A DNA stretch of 52,974 bases, from contig JAJZRO010000017.1 in assembly GCA_021802645.1 (NCBI GenBank), positions 1-52,974 of the forward strand, in the 5' to 3' direction. The DNA comes from Deltaproteobacteria bacterium. GTDB taxonomy: Bacteria > Desulfobacterota > Desulfobulbia > Desulfobulbales > Desulfurivibrionaceae. This document shows positions 3,526 to 14,348 of the stretch, in pieces; the first letter of the stretch is position 1, and the number at the start of each line of letters is the position of its first letter. The translations under genes were made by a program, and so were the position numbers. Under the pieces are notes generated by a model, which did no database searches, had not been told where the DNA came from, and worked only from the letters and a program-made list of their open reading frames with translations.

Positions 3526-4251
3526 TCAGCGGGTTGTTGCCGTTGCCAACCGGGCGAAGCGGGCGAGAAGGGAGCCAGCCTCGGGACATTCCCGTACGCT
3601 AGCCAGCATGGTGGAGGGGGTGAGCCCAGCAGCGGTCAGGTGTTCGGTGTCGGCTGCGATCTCGGCGGTCATAATTGCTTGCGTATATTCGGGATGGAAC
3701 TGCACACCCCAGGCGCATGCACCGATTCGGAAGGCGTGGTGGGGTTCGAAGTTGTTGCGGGCAAGGAGGGTCGCCCCGGGTGGTAGGGAGAGAACGCTCT
3801 GGCTGTGAAAGGCCTGGACCGGAAAGGTGGCGGGCAGGCCGGCAAAGAGCGGGTCATTCCCTGCCTCCGGCAAGAGATCGATGGTGACCGTGCCGATCTC
3901 CGGGCCCTGCGGATGGTAATCCACCCGGCCGCCCAAGGCTGCCGCCAGAAGTTGATGGCCGTAACAGACGCCGAGCAGCGGGATGCCCCGCGCCACCACC
4001 TCTGGCAGCCAGGCGGCGAGCGCCACGCTCCATGGAAGGTTGTCGGTCACCATGGCATGGGAGCCGGTGATCACCACGCCGCCGCATTCTTTGGGCCGCG
4101 GCAGTTCCTCGCCATCCTCCACTCGCACCACCCGGACGGCATCGTCGGGCAGCATCAGTCCCTCGCGCAGCCACTCCTCGAAATCGCCGAAACGCTGCCG
4201 TACCGCCGCCATGGCGCTGCCGGCCTTGAGGATGACGAGCGGTCGCGTCAT
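3526..4251 (-). CDS. Class I glutamine amidotransferase
   Basis: 241 aa, a single GATase1 domain of the kind seen in stand-alone GMP-synthase-like amidotransferases. The nucleophile elbow is GVCYGHQ with Cys96. The catalytic His186 and Glu188 are in GVQFHPEY, so the triad is complete. Such domains release ammonia from glutamine for an acceptor or hydrolyse gamma-glutamyl bonds. The substrate cannot be told from sequence. It is the last gene of the nif-linked minus-strand run, overlapping the preceding HEPN-like gene by 4 nt (ATGA). Its C-terminal tail (about residues 200-241) is alanine-rich. Confidence 0.85.
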   Translation of the reverse strand: MTRPLVILKAGSAMAAVRQRFGDFEEWLREGLMLPDDAVRVVRVEDGEELPRPKECGGVVITGSHAMVTDNLPWSVALAAWLPEVVARGIPLLGVCYGHQLLAAALGGRVDYHPQGPEIGTVTIDLLPEAGNDPLFAGLPATFPVQAFHSQSVLSLPPGATLLARNNFEPHHAFRIGACAWGVQFHPEYTQAIMTAEIAADTEHLTAAGLTPSTMLASVRECPEAGSLLARFARLATATTR

Positions 4252-4661
4252 CCCTTGGCCTTGCAGCCGAGAACGGCGACCACGAAGTTCTGGATCTCTT
4301 CGGCGGTTTGGAGGACCACCGCCAGCTCCGCCTCATCGGGCGAGGTGCGGCGATAGCTCTCCTGGTCGCAGATTTCCTGGAAGGCGTCGAGGAAGAGCAG
4401 CCGCTCCTTGAGGCTGGGCTCTAAAGAGAGGTGGCGTTCCGTCGAGTGGATAAGGTCGCGCATGGTGTGGTTGTCGGCCAGATCGCCGTGGAACATGAGC
4501 AGGGCCATGAGGTGTTTCTCGATGGCCATGGCCGCCAGGTTGTAGAGGACCTCCGCGGTAAAGACCTCGCGCCGCTTGGCTGCAGCGCGCAGCGCGGTGT
4601 TCAGGTAGTCATCGCCCTCTTTCATGAACTGCCGCCAATCATCCAGTTGCACGAGCTGCAT
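4248..4661 (-). CDS. HEPN-like small helical protein
   Basis: 137 aa, all-helical. The segment EVLYNLAAMAIEKHLMALLMFHG followed by RDLIHSTERHL resembles HEPN-domain proteins. The RNase motif R-x4-6-H of toxic HEPN proteins is not present in clear form, so it is more likely a structural or nucleotidyltransferase-partner type. A start at ATG 4661 is preferred over GTG 4670 because AAGGTG lies 6 nt before it. The start overlaps the GNAT stop by about 23 bp, and the stop overlaps the amidotransferase start, indicating co-translation. Function is unknown. Confidence 0.65.
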   Translation of the reverse strand: MQLVQLDDWRQFMKEGDDYLNTALRAAAKRREVFTAEVLYNLAAMAIEKHLMALLMFHGDLADNHTMRDLIHSTERHLSLEPSLKERLLFLDAFQEICDQESYRRTSPDEAELAVVLQTAEEIQNFVVAVLGCKAKG

Positions 4662-5157
4662 GGGTTGCACCTTGAGGTGAGGTCATTCTGCCAGGGGTGG
4701 CATTTTGGCAAGCAAGCAGGCGCTGCCGGAGGCAGATGAGTTCCGTGTGCTGCCAGCCGATACGCCGATAAAACTCCAGGGCCGGCTGGTTGTTGCGATC
4801 GGCCAGCAGTTGCAGGCGGCCGATGCCTTGCGCTCCGGCCCATTCGGCCAGGGCGGTCAGCAGCCGCCGACCGATGCCCTTCCCGCGCCAGCCTGCCTCC
4901 ACCACCACGTCCTCCACCAGCAGGGCGAAACCTCCTTCGGCGGTGGAAATGGTGGTTTGGCCGGTGACCATGCCGATCACCCGGCCTTCGGCCTCGGCCA
5001 CCAGAACGCAGGTGGCGGGGCTCGCCAGCATCAAGGCCAGCCCCCGCCGCTGCCGTGCTTCGTCGCAGGAAAAATCCGCCTCGATGGCAAAAAGCACCTG
5101 CAACAGGGCGGTGAGGGCGTCGAGGTCCGCCATGGTCGCCGGTCGGATGGTTACCAT
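4639..5157 (-). CDS. GNAT family N-acetyltransferase
   Basis: 172 aa. A GNAT core runs from VTIRPATMADLDAL at the start, through VEDVVVEAGWRGKGIGRRLL (acetyl-CoA loop, R/Q-x-x-G-x-G/A form as RGKGIG), to NQPALEFYRRIGW at about residue 135. Acetyl-CoA is the expected donor; the acceptor is unknown. It sits between the ferredoxin (gap about 11 bp) and the HEPN-like gene in the tail of the nif operon. The C-terminal 25 residues beyond the fold overlap the next gene and may be dispensable. The ATG at 5157 fits the family's usual N-terminus. Confidence 0.85.
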   Translation of the reverse strand: MVTIRPATMADLDALTALLQVLFAIEADFSCDEARQRRGLALMLASPATCVLVAEAEGRVIGMVTGQTTISTAEGGFALLVEDVVVEAGWRGKGIGRRLLTALAEWAGAQGIGRLQLLADRNNQPALEFYRRIGWQHTELICLRQRLLACQNATPGRMTSPQGATHAARATG

Positions 5158-5168
5158 GTCCAACGCCT

Positions 5169-5471
5169 TTAGCCGATCAGATACTTGGCGGCTGGTTCGC
5201 CATCTTCCAGGCCGTCGAGGATGGCGTCGATGGCCGCCTCGCTGTCCACGCCCTTGAACCACCAGCTCTCCGGCTGCACCACCATGATGGGCCCGGATTC
5301 GCACTGCTTGAGGCAGGTGGTGGCGGTGACCAGGCAGTCGAGGCCGCGGTCCAGGATCTCCTCCTCCAGATACTGGAGAAAACCGTCGGTCTGCTTGTGG
5401 CAGATGCCTTTCTTGTCGCCGGCCACGCGGAAGCTCTGGCAGACGAGAATCTGTCGTTTCGGAATTGCCAT
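5169..5471 (-). CDS. Thioredoxin-like [2Fe-2S] ferredoxin
   Basis: 100 aa. Cys11 (ILVCQSF), Cys24 (GICHKQ), Cys53 and Cys57 (TTCLKQCE) form the ligand pattern of thioredoxin-fold [2Fe-2S] (Shethna-type) ferredoxins. Cys46 is an additional cysteine. Proteins of this type often lie in nif clusters, where they are thought to carry electrons to or within nitrogenase assembly or activity. It directly follows the NifB-related gene (52 bp gap) and precedes the GNAT. The start at 5471 has a GGAG-containing site just upstream. Confidence 0.88.
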   Translation of the reverse strand: MAIPKRQILVCQSFRVAGDKKGICHKQTDGFLQYLEEEILDRGLDCLVTATTCLKQCESGPIMVVQPESWWFKGVDSEAAIDAILDGLEDGEPAAKYLIG

Positions 5472-5523: not shown

Positions 5524-6666
5524 TTATGGCCGCTGGTTGCGGCCGCCTTTGCCTTTTTTGCCGCCGCCGTAGAGCAGGTCCACGGTGGCGTCGGTCTCGC
5601 CCTCGGTAATCAGCATGCTGATACCGTGGCTGGCGAGGATTTTTTTCGGACTCTCGCCCGCACTGGCGGCAAGCAGGGCGAAACAGTCGTGCAGGATGCT
5701 GGCCGCCGCCTCCCAACGGGCCTGGCCGCTGCCTGGTTCCGGCAGTTCCCGGATGGCCAGGAGCGAAATCAGCCCATCCTCCCGCGGGCCATAGATCAAG
5801 GCCTTGATCGCGTGACCGAGATGCAGGTCCACCTCCCTGCCGCCGATGCTCACCACCGCCACGTTGGGTTGAGTTGGGGTCGGCTTGGGCAACACCGGGC
5901 CACCCGAGAACGGTGCGGCCATGCCACCGGGCTCCACCGTGGGCCGGGCCGCGAGCACGGGCAGATGCTGCGCCACCAGGGGGGTCACCCTGGCCAGCAC
6001 CGCCGCATCCTCATCGCTGCCCGCATGGGCCGGCAGCAGGGTCATGGTGGCCGCGCCCAACGATGCCATCTTCCGGGCGATCTCCTCTACTTGGCCGTCG
6101 TTGATGCCGGGGCAGATCGTGGTCTGGATGTGCACCGTCATTCCTGCCTGACTCAAGGCCATGGCGGCCCGGGCCTGTTCCGCAACGAGCAGCGCCGTTG
6201 CCTCGGCAAGCGGCATGGTCTTGGTGCCCGGTCGTACCCAGGCATAGACCTTGGCTGCCTCATCCTGCGTCACCGCGTCCACCAGCAGGGTTATCCGGCG
6301 AACGCCCAGGGCGGCCAACTGGCGGGCATGGTCGCTGCCGCCCAGTCCCAGGGTGGCGACCTCCAGCGGCAACCCGGGGTACTGGCGGCGGATCAGCGCC
6401 AGGGTCTCGAAGAGGAAGCCGGGCGTGGCCAGGGGGTCACCGGGGCCGTCGCATGCCACCGCACCAATCATCTGCCCATGGTGCTGCACCTCTGCCAGCC
6501 AGGTCACGGCCGCGACCGGGGCGATGGCCGGTTGCGGCCTGGCCGCGACCGCCCACCGCACTCTGGCCAGGGCCTTGGGTGCCACGGGCAGTCGGGCCAG
6601 CAGCGGTCCGGCCGTGGCGGCCTCATTGGCAGGCGCTTCGGCACCGGGGAAGGAGAGGATTTTCAT
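5524..6666 (-). CDS. NifB-related protein lacking radical-SAM cysteines, with NifX-like C-terminal domain
   Basis: 380 aa. Residues 24-210 follow the NifB radical-SAM core: ARLPVAPK at 24-31, DGPGD at 73-77 (NifB: AGPGD), KVYAWV at 139-144 and ICPGINDGQVEEIARK at 184-199. Directly after ARLPVAPK, where NifB has CNIQCNYC, this protein reads ALARVRWA (residues 32-39, DNA 6550-6573), so all three cluster cysteines are replaced by Ala, Val and Ala. The later Cys-rich HCRQC segment of NifB is also absent. Residues 267-360 form a NifX/NafY-like cofactor-binding domain (VDLHLGHA). It cannot use SAM in the known way. A scaffold or carrier role for NifB-co or FeMo-co is my inference. It starts 88 bp after nifK. 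Confidence 0.82.
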   Translation of the reverse strand: MKILSFPGAEAPANEAATAGPLLARLPVAPKALARVRWAVAARPQPAIAPVAAVTWLAEVQHHGQMIGAVACDGPGDPLATPGFLFETLALIRRQYPGLPLEVATLGLGGSDHARQLAALGVRRITLLVDAVTQDEAAKVYAWVRPGTKTMPLAEATALLVAEQARAAMALSQAGMTVHIQTTICPGINDGQVEEIARKMASLGAATMTLLPAHAGSDEDAAVLARVTPLVAQHLPVLAARPTVEPGGMAAPFSGGPVLPKPTPTQPNVAVVSIGGREVDLHLGHAIKALIYGPREDGLISLLAIRELPEPGSGQARWEAAASILHDCFALLAASAGESPKKILASHGISMLITEGETDATVDLLYGGGKKGKGGRNQRP

Positions 6667-6754: not shown

Positions 6755-8128
6755 TTACATGACCAACTCGAACTTGGTTTCTGGCGCATCGCGGTCGAGG
6801 CGATCCATCAGCACCCCGAGGATTTTCTCCAGCAGCCGGATGCCGCCCTTGTAGCCCACGGTGGGGAAGTACTGATGCCCCTGGCGGTCGAGGATGGGGA
6901 AGCCCCAGCGCACGTAGGGGATGTCCTCGTCCCGGGCAATGTACTTGCAGTAGGTGTTGCCGACCAACAGATCCACCGGCTCGTTCTTGATCCACTGATG
7001 CAAAAGGAACATGTCGCCCGCCGCCTTGACGTTCACCTCGTAGGGCAGCTCCTTGGTGAGCTCCCTGATCCGCTCCTCGAACCGCTTGCCCGGCGTGCCG
7101 GTGACGATATGGGTCGGCCACATGTCCAGCGAAACCAGAAACTCAGTCATGGCGATGAGCTGATCCGGATCACCCACCAGGGCCACCTTCTTGTGGTAGA
7201 GGTACTGGTGCATGTCCGAGATCATGTCCACCAGCTGGCCGCGCTCAAGGGTGATCTCCTCCGGGATGGTCACCCCGGCGACGGTTCGGAGCGCATCGAT
7301 GAAACGGTCGGTGGCCGCCAACCCAAAGGGCATGTCCAGCACCTTGCACGGCACCTTGCACTTGGCGTCGAGCCAGCGGGCCGCGTCGGCGGAGCACCAC
7401 TCGCCCAGGGCCAGGGTGCCGCAGGAGTCGCCGCAGGACTTCAGCTCGTCGATGGTCACCCCGCCCTCGGGGAACATCTTGTATTCGCCGGAAAGCGGGC
7501 CGTTCAAGACGCCGGAGGTGTCGGGGAACATGATGGATTTGACGCCGATAAGCCGCATCAGCCGTTTGATTTCCTCCATGTCGCAGGGTTCGACCCAGCC
7601 GGGAATGATGTTGACCTTGCCGTTCTTCTTGCCCTTGGGCTCGGCCAGCATGGCCATGGACTTGGTCATGCTGGCAAAGCCGGTGACGTGCGACCCCACG
7701 TAGCTCGGGGTGTTGGCGCCGAGCACTGTCTTGCCTGCGGGGATCTTGCCCTCATCCTGCGCCTTTTTCTTGATCTGCTTGAGATCGTCGCCGATGGTCT
7801 CGGAAAGGCAGGTGGTGTGGATGGCGATCACCTCGGGGTCGTAGACCGAGAAGATGTTGTTGATCGCCTGCAGCATGTTGGCCTGACCGCCGAAGACCGA
7901 GGCGCCCTCGGTAAACGAGCTGGTGGAGGCGGAGATCGGCTCCTTGTAGTGGCGGGTCAGGGTGCTGCGGTGGTAGGCGCAGCACCCCTGGGATCCGTGG
8001 CTGTGCGGCAGGCAGCCGTGGATGCCTAAGCTCGCATACATGGCGCCGATGGGCTGGCAGGTCTTGGCCGGGTTGATGGTCAAGGCCGTGCGTTCGGTGA
8101 TTTCCTTGGGGGTATGTCGTAAGAGCAT
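6755..8128 (-). CDS. nifK: Nitrogenase molybdenum-iron protein beta chain
   Basis: 457 aa, the short form typical of anaerobe nitrogenases that lack the long N-terminal arm of the Azotobacter protein. P-cluster cysteines are Cys24 (KTCQPIGA), Cys49 (GSQGCCAYHR) and Cys107 (TTCLSETIGDD). With NifD it forms the alpha2-beta2 component that reduces N2. It lies 70 bp downstream of nifD on the same strand. The next gene is a NifB relative rather than nifE, which is unusual. The ATG at 8128 has a GAGG site just upstream. Confidence 0.97.
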   Translation of the reverse strand: MLLRHTPKEITERTALTINPAKTCQPIGAMYASLGIHGCLPHSHGSQGCCAYHRSTLTRHYKEPISASTSSFTEGASVFGGQANMLQAINNIFSVYDPEVIAIHTTCLSETIGDDLKQIKKKAQDEGKIPAGKTVLGANTPSYVGSHVTGFASMTKSMAMLAEPKGKKNGKVNIIPGWVEPCDMEEIKRLMRLIGVKSIMFPDTSGVLNGPLSGEYKMFPEGGVTIDELKSCGDSCGTLALGEWCSADAARWLDAKCKVPCKVLDMPFGLAATDRFIDALRTVAGVTIPEEITLERGQLVDMISDMHQYLYHKKVALVGDPDQLIAMTEFLVSLDMWPTHIVTGTPGKRFEERIRELTKELPYEVNVKAAGDMFLLHQWIKNEPVDLLVGNTYCKYIARDEDIPYVRWGFPILDRQGHQYFPTVGYKGGIRLLEKILGVLMDRLDRDAPETKFELVM

Positions 8129-8198: not shown

Positions 8199-9845
8199 CT
8201 ATTCCCAGGCGAAGGTGGCGGAAAGCTGCGGGTTGGTCTGCCACGGCGCCTTCATGTAGCTCCAGACCTTGCTGTTCACCAACCGGTCGATCTCCTGGTA
8301 GAAGTTGATCGCACCCTTGAACCCGGCATAGGGACCGCCGGAGTCGTAGCTGTGGAGCTGCTTCATGGGCACGCCCAGCTTCTGGATCGAGAACTTCTCC
8401 TTGATGCCGGCGCAGAAGATATCCGGCTGCATCAATTCCACCAGCTTTTCCGCCTCGTACTGGTTGAGGTCGTCGATAACGAGCGTCCCTTTCTCCATGT
8501 CCGGAATGAGGCCGTCGTAATCCTTGAACCGGTAGCCGGCCTTTTCCAGGGTCGCGAGTTCCTTGGCGCTCTTGCGCGGTTTGAAGCGCTTTTCGTCCGC
8601 CTCCACCTCGAGCTCCTCGATGTTGCGGCTGTCGGCATCCACCTCCAGAGAAGGGATCACCTGGCGGCCTTCGTAGTCGTCGCGGTGGGCGAACTCGTAG
8701 CCGGCAGAGATGGTCTTCATGCCCAGCTCGGTGAAGAGTTCCTGGTAGTGGTGGGCCCGGGAGCCGCCGACAAAGAGCATCGCGGTCTTGCCCTCGGTCC
8801 TCGGCGTGATCTCCTTCAATGCCGCCGTAACCGCCGGCATTTCCTCGGCAATCACCGCCTCGACCCGGGCAATGAGCTTCTGGTCGCCGAAGTACTCGGC
8901 GATCTTCCGGAGCGATTTGGCCGTGGCATGGGCGCCGATGAAGTTCACCTTGATCCAGGGAATACCGAACTTGGTCTCCATCATGTCGGCCACGTAGTTG
9001 ATGGAGCGGTGGCACATGACGGTGTTCAGATCCGCCTGGTGGGCCGAGGCGAACTGATCGTAGCTCGAATTGCCCGAAAAGGTGGCGAGGGGGGTGATGC
9101 CGCACTTCTTGAGCACCCGGTCGATCTCGAAGCCGTCACCGCCGATGTTGTACTCGCCGAGCAGGTTGATCTTGAACTCGCCCTCCTTGGGCACGTCGTT
9201 TTCGCCCACGATGTGGCGGAAGACCTGGTTGTTGGCGATGTGGTGGCCGGCGGACTGGCTGACGCCCTTGTACCCCTCGCAGGAGAAGGCATAGACGTTG
9301 CAGTCGCCGAACTTCTCCTTCATCCGCTTGGTCACCGTGTGGATGTCGTCGCCGATGAGCCCCACCGGGCAGGTGGCGAAGACGGCGATGGATTTGGGGT
9401 GAAAGAGGTCGTAGGCCTCCTGGATCGCCCGCTCCAACTTCTTCTCGCCGCCGAAGATGATGTCCGAGTCCTGCATATCGGTAGAAAAGCAGTAGGTCAT
9501 GTAGTTCTCACCGTCCGGACCGGCATCGGTCTGGTTGCGGCGGGTGAGCCAGGAATAGAAGCCGCAGCCGATGGGGCCGTGGGTGATGTTGACGATGTCC
9601 CGCGTCGGCCCCATGATCACGCCCTTGCAGCCGGCATAGGTGCAGCCGCGCATGGTGATGATGCCGGGGGTGGTGCGGACGTTGGCGGAAATCTCCGGCG
9701 TCTCGTTGCCGAGCGCCTCGTTGATCATGATCTGCTTGGCGCGTTTGCGGGCGACTTTGGCCGGATACTTGGCCAGCAGCTCTTTTTTGACCTCGGCCGG
9801 GTCCCACTGGGCCGACTTCTTCTTGGTTGCCGTTGCGGTTGCCAT
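8199..9845 (-). CDS. nifD: Nitrogenase molybdenum-iron protein alpha chain
   Basis: 548 aa. P-cluster cysteines are Cys68 (RGCTY), Cys94 (PIGCGFYS) and Cys159 (ATCPVGLIGDD). FeMo-co ligands are Cys278 (VMCHRSINY) and His498 (KQLHSYD). The active-site residues of SQSAGHH (Gln197, His201) are conserved, so this is a molybdenum-type enzyme by ligand pattern. An insertion of about 50-70 residues around 388-460 is absent from Azotobacter NifD but present in clostridial and many sulfate-reducer proteins (group II). It is 17 bp from nifI2. Confidence 0.97.
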   Translation of the reverse strand: MATATATKKKSAQWDPAEVKKELLAKYPAKVARKRAKQIMINEALGNETPEISANVRTTPGIITMRGCTYAGCKGVIMGPTRDIVNITHGPIGCGFYSWLTRRNQTDAGPDGENYMTYCFSTDMQDSDIIFGGEKKLERAIQEAYDLFHPKSIAVFATCPVGLIGDDIHTVTKRMKEKFGDCNVYAFSCEGYKGVSQSAGHHIANNQVFRHIVGENDVPKEGEFKINLLGEYNIGGDGFEIDRVLKKCGITPLATFSGNSSYDQFASAHQADLNTVMCHRSINYVADMMETKFGIPWIKVNFIGAHATAKSLRKIAEYFGDQKLIARVEAVIAEEMPAVTAALKEITPRTEGKTAMLFVGGSRAHHYQELFTELGMKTISAGYEFAHRDDYEGRQVIPSLEVDADSRNIEELEVEADEKRFKPRKSAKELATLEKAGYRFKDYDGLIPDMEKGTLVIDDLNQYEAEKLVELMQPDIFCAGIKEKFSIQKLGVPMKQLHSYDSGGPYAGFKGAINFYQEIDRLVNSKVWSYMKAPWQTNPQLSATFAWE

Positions 9846-9862: not shown

Positions 9863-10237
9863 TTATGCGATCGCCTTGCTGCCTTTCTCGCCGGTCCGGA
9901 CGCGCACGGCATCCTTGAGCGGCACCACGAAGATCTTGCCGTCGCCGGGCTTGCCGGTCTGGTTCACGGCGATCAGGGCCTGCACCACATCCTTGACCTC
10001 GTTATCCTTGACCACCGCGGTCACCATGCGCTTGGGGTAGAGCTGGCCCTTGGCGCCCAAGAGGGCGGCGGCCTCCTCGTAGCCCTGGCTGGCGCCTTCC
10101 AAGATCTTGGGATTGGCCAACCCCTTGCCACGGCCTTGGGCCTCGTGGACAAAGAAGGCGTCGATGCCCGCGTCGGTGAGGGCCTGTTTGGTCTGGTTCA
10201 TCATATTGATCCGCACGACGGCGATGACCTCTTTCAT
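9863..10237 (-). CDS. nifI2: Nitrogenase-associated PII-like regulator NifI2
   Basis: 124 aa PII-family protein. The C-terminal signature is KPGDGKIFVVPLKDAVRVRTGEKG. The T-loop segment differs from GlnB, with no YRGAEY tyrosine and a longer insert around residues 45-65. In methanogens and several anaerobes NifI1 and NifI2 together bind the dinitrogenase and inhibit it on ammonium addition, relieved by 2-oxoglutarate. Its start overlaps the nifI1 stop by 4 nt, consistent with a complex made in equal amounts. Confidence 0.93.
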   Translation of the reverse strand: MKEVIAVVRINMMNQTKQALTDAGIDAFFVHEAQGRGKGLANPKILEGASQGYEEAAALLGAKGQLYPKRMVTAVVKDNEVKDVVQALIAVNQTGKPGDGKIFVVPLKDAVRVRTGEKGSKAIA

Positions 10238-10590
10238 GCCGGCACCCCCTCGGCGGCATATTGGGTCTCCTTGACCCCGGAGCTGATGGTGTAGGACTCC
10301 TCCACCTCGGAGACGAAGATCTTGCCGTCGCCAAACGCCCCCTTGCCGCTGGAGCGGGCGCTGTTCATGACGGTCTCGATGAAGAAATCCTTGTCCGCGC
10401 TGTTGATGACGCTCATCAGCATGACCTTGGGGATCTCGTCGTAGGTGACGTCGCCGATCTTGATGCCGCGTTGCTTGCCGCGGCCGGCAACCGCGTATTT
10501 GGTGACCGCCGGAAATCCCGCCTCCATGAGGGCGGCGAGGACTTTATCTGCTTTTTCCGGCCGGACAATGGCCCTGATCATGGTCAACAT
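10234..10590 (-). CDS. nifI1: Nitrogenase-associated PII-like regulator NifI1
   Basis: 118 aa PII-family protein placed between nifH and nifD, the diagnostic position of nifI1. It starts MLTMIRAIVRPEKADKV and carries GRGKQRGIKIGDVTYDE in the T-loop region and GAFGDGKIFVSEVEESYTI at the C-terminal end. It acts post-translationally on nitrogenase with NifI2. The ATG at 10590 is chosen; the frame extends upstream but without PII similarity. Confidence 0.93.
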   Translation of the reverse strand: MLTMIRAIVRPEKADKVLAALMEAGFPAVTKYAVAGRGKQRGIKIGDVTYDEIPKVMLMSVINSADKDFFIETVMNSARSSGKGAFGDGKIFVSEVEESYTISSGVKETQYAAEGVPA

Positions 10591-10670: not shown

Positions 10671-13571
<2,901 letters not shown>

Positions 13572-13625: not shown

Positions 13626-14348
13626 TCAGCGAATGAGCCGGAGATACCGGGCGAAGAAGAGCTCGAAGTCGGCGGCGATCTCCTTTTCATGGAGTCGGGC
13701 CGCTTCGAGGATATGTCGGGGGTTGATCTCCTGATCGCGAATGGAGGAGAGCCACTTCTGGTCCTTCTGGAGCCAGAGGGCCACATCCTCAGGCGCGGCG
13801 GCGTGGTTGTCGAACTGTACCCCGACCAAATGGGGGCGGCCGGCCACCGAGATCGCCTCCACCTGGCACTCGGCCGAGGTCATCAAGACGGTGAGATGTT
13901 TGGGAACCGGCTCCAGGACGGTCTGGCCGTGCCATTTGAAGAGCGGTATCGTCTGGCCGAGCTCCGCAAAGGCCGGATGCGTTCGGCCGTCGTGGGTGAG
14001 ATGGCCCTGGACAAAGCCCACGCTGGTGCAGAAGTTGGGGCCGATGCGGGCGCCGAGGGCCTGGGCCAGCAGCTGATGGCCCAGGCAAAAACCAAGGCAC
14101 GGCTTATCCGTTGCCATGGCCTCGCGAAGCAGGCGTTTTTCTTCGGCCAGAAAGGGGTATTGCGCCTCCTGATCCACATTGGCTCCGCCTCCCAAGAGCA
14201 ACAGGCCGTCATACTCGCGAAAATCGGGTAGCGGCGCCTCCCACACCCGGACCACATGCAGTGTGGTGCGATGTTTCCGGACCGACCGCATCAGGATGGC
14301 GCCGGGACCTTCCCAGGGGCTATGTTGCAGAACCAGCAGTCGCAGCAT
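13626..14348 (-). CDS. Glutamine amidotransferase-like protein, altered catalytic His
   Basis: 240 aa class I amidotransferase fold. The nucleophile elbow is intact (GFCLGHQ, Cys88). The position of the catalytic His-Pro-Glu reads GVQFDNHA, so His is replaced by Asp180 and Glu is missing; His182 is two residues on. It may be inactive as a glutaminase or use a shifted His. It is convergent with nifA (54 bp gap). It is a different subfamily from the amidotransferase at 3.5-4.3 kb. Function is unknown. Confidence 0.8.
   Translation of the reverse strand: MLRLLVLQHSPWEGPGAILMRSVRKHRTTLHVVRVWEAPLPDFREYDGLLLLGGGANVDQEAQYPFLAEEKRLLREAMATDKPCLGFCLGHQLLAQALGARIGPNFCTSVGFVQGHLTHDGRTHPAFAELGQTIPLFKWHGQTVLEPVPKHLTVLMTSAECQVEAISVAGRPHLVGVQFDNHAAAPEDVALWLQKDQKWLSSIRDQEINPRHILEAARLHEKEIAADFELFFARYLRLIR

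Follow-up and report, generated by a model that had tools for sequence, protein, structure and literature searches.

Gene and operon setting

The window, that is the whole 52,974-nucleotide stretch of DNA analysed here, contains a nitrogenase operon in which the genes are arranged in the order nifH-nifI1-nifI2-nifD-nifK and are followed by a gene for a NifB-like protein, termed the paralog in the following, and by a [2Fe-2S] ferredoxin gene (Table 1). The paralog gene is separated from nifK by 88 bases and from the ferredoxin gene by 52 bases. A longer, mechanically called ORF from position 6789 was rejected as its start, as it overlaps nifK, which ends at 6755, and the ATG at 6666 was taken. 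The resulting frame of 380 amino acids contains all the landmarks that an earlier note on this DNA had listed (LPVAPK, GPGD, YAWV, PGIND, and HLGHA). Upstream of nifH, a sigma-54-type promoter-like site (TGGCACACCCCTTGCC) was detected. Since sites with at most two mismatches occur 26 times in the window against 29 expected and are weak evidence alone, this site is plausible because of its position before nifH and not because of its match score.

Table 1 Features of the nif locus in the window
Feature	Position	Strand	Basis
[2Fe-2S] ferredoxin, Clostridium/Azotobacter nif-linked type	5169..5471	(-)	NF041612, 1.1e-15, below curated cut-off
Pseudo-NifB: Cys-less NifB-type barrel plus NifX-like domain, 380 aa	5524..6666	(-)	profile and fold matches
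NifX/NafY-like domain, residues 265-366	5569..5874	(-)	PF02579; fold; profile matches 1p90, 9ian
HLGHA with His282, equivalent of NifX His35	5809..5823	(-)	profile alignment
NifB-type (radical-SAM fold) barrel, residues 22-239, without cluster ligands	5950..6603	(-)	match to NifB structures
GPGD, residues 74-77, retained part of NifB AGPG motif	6436..6447	(-)	G76 in 89/89; G74 and P75 in 87/89
ALARVRWA, residues 32-39, replacing NifB CNIKCNFC	6550..6573	(-)	alignment to the genome's own NifB
nifK	6755..8128	(-)	TIGR01286 match above cut-off
nifD	8199..9845	(-)	PF00148 match
nifI2, PII-type regulator	9863..10237	(-)	sequence; gene order conserved in relatives
nifI1, PII-type regulator	10234..10590	(-)	sequence; gene order conserved in relatives
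nifH	10671..11495	(-)	sequence; gene order conserved in relatives
Sigma-54-type promoter-like site, 1 mismatch	11567..11582	(-)	about 70 bases before nifH

Downstream of the ferredoxin gene lies an ORF that looks HEPN-like by eye (4248-4670, minus strand), and a similar ORF is found directly after nifK and the ferredoxin gene in the relative G034 (locus L167, 6765-7262). Genes resembling class-I glutamine amidotransferases by eye are located on either side of the nif region (3526-4251 and 13626-14348, both on the minus strand).

Missing ligands of the NifB clusters

In NifB, the radical-SAM cluster is ligated by three cysteines of the Cx3Cx2C motif and one loop cysteine, the K1 cluster by two cysteines, one histidine, and one glutamate, and the K2 cluster by two C-terminal cysteines (PMC9692996). 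Six fingerprint motifs have been defined for the family, namely Cx3Cx2C, HPC, ExRP, AGPG, TxTxN, and Cx2CRxDAxG (Arragain et al. 2017; PMC5715403). The paralog shares about 30 % identity with NifB, including GPG and other structural residues, and its match to the NifB profile TIGR01290 is real (107.9 bits) but far under the cut-off of 343.65. When it is aligned with the intact NifB of the same genome, ALARVRWA stands opposite CNIKCNFC (C79-C86), which bears out the replacement reported in the earlier note. The same is true for the accessory cysteine clusters, whose absence had also been noted: at least 95 of 96 relatives have lost the loop with C92 and E95 (E95 corresponds to a gap in 95), and the K2 pair C306/C309 is replaced, as judged from 96 paralogs and 47 intact NifB proteins. 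Cx2CRxDAxG occurs in no or nearly no family member, and the ExRP motif of the flexible loop is absent from the paralog and deleted in nearly all relatives. The K1 motif HPC is missing from the window protein and survives, as HPCF, in seven basal relatives only. The statement that all cysteines had been replaced is thus exact for the window protein but does not extend to the family, given these seven proteins and a lone cysteine at the third position of the radical-SAM motif in 16 of 89 relatives. The complete CxxxCxxC motif is kept in 0 of 96 distinct relatives, which rules out a frameshift or sequencing error hiding it in the window; because the Cys-less form recurs in so many distinct sequences, it is no artefact.

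Since the ligands of all three clusters are lost, NifB-type catalysis by the paralog is excluded, and the protein is a pseudoenzyme in this respect, as had been suggested. Annotation-based counts of "nifB" can consequently include proteins unable to make NifB-co. The AGPG motif reads DGPGD in the window protein, with GPG kept and the alanine lost, and is mostly GPG in the family. Its near invariance would fit retained SAM binding by a non-radical SAM-dependent enzyme or sensor; such a function is very improbable, however, as no cluster is left to anchor SAM, TxTxN (TLLVD in the window protein) is altered and SNG lost in most relatives, and GPGD may be structural.

The paralog is not the sole nifB of its genome, since an intact nifE-nifN-nifB cluster, for which a search had been recommended, is present on contig C2; an intact nifB was likewise found in all eight further genomes checked, cable bacteria included. 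A separate nif-linked NifX was not found in the window's genome. In several genomes carrying the paralog, a small NifX-like gene lies beside nifB, and because such carriers have both, the paralog is not simply the missing NifX. A small conserved protein (FEYASMPLHGTMSRKLRKG) is encoded beside nifB in the window's genome (locus L067 on contig C2, 10800-10985); a protein of this type is found after nifK in the relative G010 (L166, 6865-7125) and is nif-linked in several relatives.

Predicted fold and the NifX/NafY-like domain

The AlphaFold2 model of the paralog has a mean pLDDT of 84, and that of the C-terminal domain alone one of 88. As had been supposed, the fold appears to be kept: the predicted barrel matches the NifB structures 7jma, 7jmb, 7bi7, and 6y1x with Z scores of 26-27 (VIA-align), and the next family follows 9 units lower at 17.5. 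The C-terminal domain, described before as NifX-like, is recognised by PF02579 at residues 276-358 with 26.8 bits, just over the cut-off of 26.3, and its predicted structure matches the NafY core (Z 13.2, 107 residues, 3.5 A) and NifX of the NifENX complex (Z 13.0, 107 residues, 3.1 A), with general PF02579 proteins more than one unit behind (Z 9-11.6). A profile of the full alignment matched NifB and, weakly, NafY (E 0.014); the NafY and NifX profile matches came from the domain alone.

In the NifENX structure, His35 of NifX ligates an apical iron of NifB-co, and the cofactor histidine is also present in NafY but missing from NifY and NafX (PMC13128457). In the profile alignment of the domain, His282 of the paralog aligns with residue 35 of NifX and with the histidine of the NafY HFG motif, and an equivalent histidine is present in 96 of 96 relatives. 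The residue two positions before it is Asp in 95 of the 96 paralogs, as in NifX and NafY, and Asn in 46 of 47 NifB proteins. A basic tail follows at the C-terminus in 91 of 96 relatives.

Distribution, synteny, and losses

The 96 distinct Cys-less relatives belong nearly all to the Desulfobacterota, namely to the Desulfobulbales including cable bacteria, to some Desulfovibrionales, and to the Desulfarculaceae, and the named ones include members of Desulfobulbus, Desulfocapsa, Desulfopila, Desulfosediminicola, Pseudodesulfovibrio, and the Desulfarculaceae and, among the cable bacteria, of Electrothrix and Electronema. A match at E <1e-60 was obtained in 36 of 58 relatives. The coverage of other phyla is that of one contig scan, limited to the best 80 of its 129 loci, and weaker or more distant members may exist elsewhere; in a search of plasmids for the Cys-less form, no member was recognised. 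Among 80 named loci, the paralog lies directly after nifK in 73, so that the arrangement seen in the window recurs in other genomes, and directly before a [2Fe-2S] ferredoxin gene in 77. Cable bacteria and close relatives of theirs account for most of the exceptions. Here, paralog and ferredoxin gene have been relocated together, and the nitrogenase genes and an intact nifB are located away from the pair. Loci with the pair outside the nifHDK operon are L129, L134, L138, L139, L145, and L149, and several loci of this group also have amtB and a PII gene at a distance of no more than about 5 kb.

The paralog is absent from three genomes (G005, G010, and G034) that all keep nifHDKENB, and it is therefore dispensable in some lineages. 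In G010, a C-terminal remnant of 20 residues (EGTVDLLYGGGKKGKCRK) persists between nifK and the ferredoxin gene; beside it, at the place of the lost paralog (L166, about 7190-7530), lies a small ORF (MAKKNAEDFLIAGGED), a sister of which follows the ferredoxin gene in G005 (L165, 7401-7622). We take both to be Nif11-like. The ferredoxin gene follows nifK in these three genomes and in Nitratidesulfovibrio; in N. vulgaris it does so directly, and the matches of the plasmid search fall at a gene after nifEN.

The linkage in 77 of the 80 named loci and the joint relocation in cable bacteria would be expected if the paralog were a redox or protection partner of the ferredoxin on the MoFe protein, e.g., in protection or in electron delivery for maturation. 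We regard this as improbable, since the ferredoxin persists after nifK where the paralog is missing and hence does not need it.

Origin and selection

In a maximum-likelihood tree built from 53 paralog and 38 NifB sequences, the Cys-less proteins form a single clade apart from NifB (100/100), which indicates one origin from a NifB duplicate. The stem of the clade is long (0.9 changes per column) and attaches inside or beside NifB of the same phylum, an attachment point that long-branch effects may distort. The seven basal paralogs that retain HPCF are of the Desulfovibrionales type; three of them also have a TNGL-type stretch, and both features are fossils of NifB. One very divergent Cys-less member of another family (L187, contig C5 of G371; branch length 1.62) may represent a separate pseudo-NifB lineage.

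The dN/dS values of the paralog range from 0.10 to 0.21 in most close pairs, compared to about 0.03-0.09 for nifK and, where measured, 0.04-0.05 for nifB. They indicate purifying selection on a full-length frame, in line with the earlier view of the gene. The value between the window and its nearest relative (G001) is 0.50 with an uncertain dS, so that constraint is moderate in this pair, and the very close pair L056/L137 gave 0.55. That the gene evolves faster than nifB and nifK and was lost in G010 with a remnant left behind might suggest a pseudogene that is decaying and persists as a passenger of the operon. This explanation is scarcely credible in view of the open frame and the invariant residues in 96 sequences from several orders, the dN/dS values below 1, and the retention of the gene after its relocation in cable bacteria.

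Domain constraint was compared in 28 genomes possessing both genes (378 non-independent pairs). In the NifX domain, identity is 0.642 for the paralog versus 0.607 for NifB, and the paralog is higher in 259 of the 378 pairs, a small margin; in the barrel, it is 0.442 versus 0.655, and the paralog is lower in 377 pairs. Relative to NifB of the same genome, these identities indicate that constraint has shifted from the barrel to the NifX domain.

Proposed role

The loss of the NifB ligands combined with an invariant cofactor-type histidine suggests that a NifB duplicate gave up the metal sites needed for catalysis and took on the role of a NafY/NifX-like cofactor carrier or chaperone of the MoFe protein, a reading to which we assign a probability of roughly 50 %. 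NafY and NifY bind the MoFe protein before cofactor insertion and then dissociate (PMC6016461). The place of the paralog in the operon after nifK would point to apo-NifDK as its partner, as for these two proteins. In other bacteria, nifY lies near nifHDK, a position similar to that of the paralog. According to the proposed mechanism, His282 would act like His35 of NifX and ligate an apical iron of the cofactor, FeMo-co or NifB-co, and docking on apo-NifDK (or NifEN) would fall to the dead barrel together with the basic tail, this module standing in for the unrelated N-terminal domain of NafY; the protein would pass on the cofactor or keep the insertion site open and depart after insertion. The more specific proposal that a radical-SAM enzyme gave rise, in a single event, to a metallocofactor carrier without catalytic function, with the barrel docking on apo-NifDK or NifEN and the NifX domain delivering, is advanced tentatively, at somewhat less than even odds.

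The same histidine and Asp-x-His as in NifX, the structural match to NifX of NifENX, and the lack of a separate nif-linked NifX in the window's genome would also suit a shuttle of the NifX type that carries NifB-co from NifB to NifEN, with the barrel mimicking NifB or docking on a shared partner. The roles of NifX and NafY are not separable by sequence, but the gene is grouped with nifHDK instead of standing between nifEN and nifB, and in several carriers nifB is accompanied by a small NifX-like gene of its own; we consider the shuttle unlikely, yet the strongest of the alternatives. A rather less probable one is a NifY-like placeholder or regulator acting without cofactor, either capping apo-NifDK or serving as an inactive decoy on NifB or NifEN. 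Paralogs that are dead enzymes are often regulatory, and the gene position after nifK would agree with such a role. Members of the NifX family without the cofactor histidine do exist (NifY and NafX; PMC13128457), but the paralogs have this histidine in all 96 cases. A function as scaffold or regulator, which the earlier note had named next to that of a carrier, is possible; the cofactor carrier is more likely because the NifX-type histidine is invariant and the NifX domain is the more constrained one.

The transfer of finished FeMo-co from NifEN to NifDK is an incompletely understood part of nitrogenase assembly, for which knowledge comes chiefly from Azotobacter and Klebsiella. If the carrier reading is true, the Desulfobulbales and some other Desulfobacterota have a delivery protein with a docking part unrelated to that of NafY, and this conserved candidate, present in sulfate reducers as well as in cable bacteria, would exemplify a route from enzyme to chaperone and provide a possible part for engineered nitrogenase.

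Comparison with known systems

Our search of the open-access literature turned up neither a NifB-derived pseudoenzyme nor any radical-SAM pseudoenzyme in nitrogenase, and the papers on cable bacteria contained nothing relevant to the paralog. A Paenibacillus study of several nifB genes concerns other variants. Arragain et al. (2017; PMC5715403) set aside "NifB" entries without Cx3Cx2C as misannotated NifX; by description, these entries resemble the paralog in their annotation, the missing motif, and the NifX domain, whereas the N-terminal half of the paralog is a NifB-derived barrel. In all, the removal of 101 entries reduced their set from 390 to 289.

With NifB, the paralog has the two-domain architecture and the barrel fold in common, but it lacks the ligand sets of the radical-SAM, K1, and K2 clusters and adjoins nifHDK, with the intact nifB elsewhere. 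It resembles NafY, a FeMo-co carrier that binds apo-NifDK, in having two domains, one of them NifX-like with the cofactor histidine and Asp-x-His; the N-terminal docking domain of NafY, in contrast, is a sterile alpha motif according to Hernandez (2011, as cited in PMC13128457), in place of which the paralog has a dead NifB barrel. NifX, which carries NifB-co to NifEN, shares the domain fold and the equivalent of His35 but is a single-domain protein whose C-terminal helix binds NifE, whereas the paralog has a barrel at its N-terminus and a basic tail in addition. NifY has the NifX-like domain and a gene near nifHDK but no cofactor histidine. Because the protein falls outside NifB while showing the testable features of the NifX domain, it is a new variant assembled from known parts.
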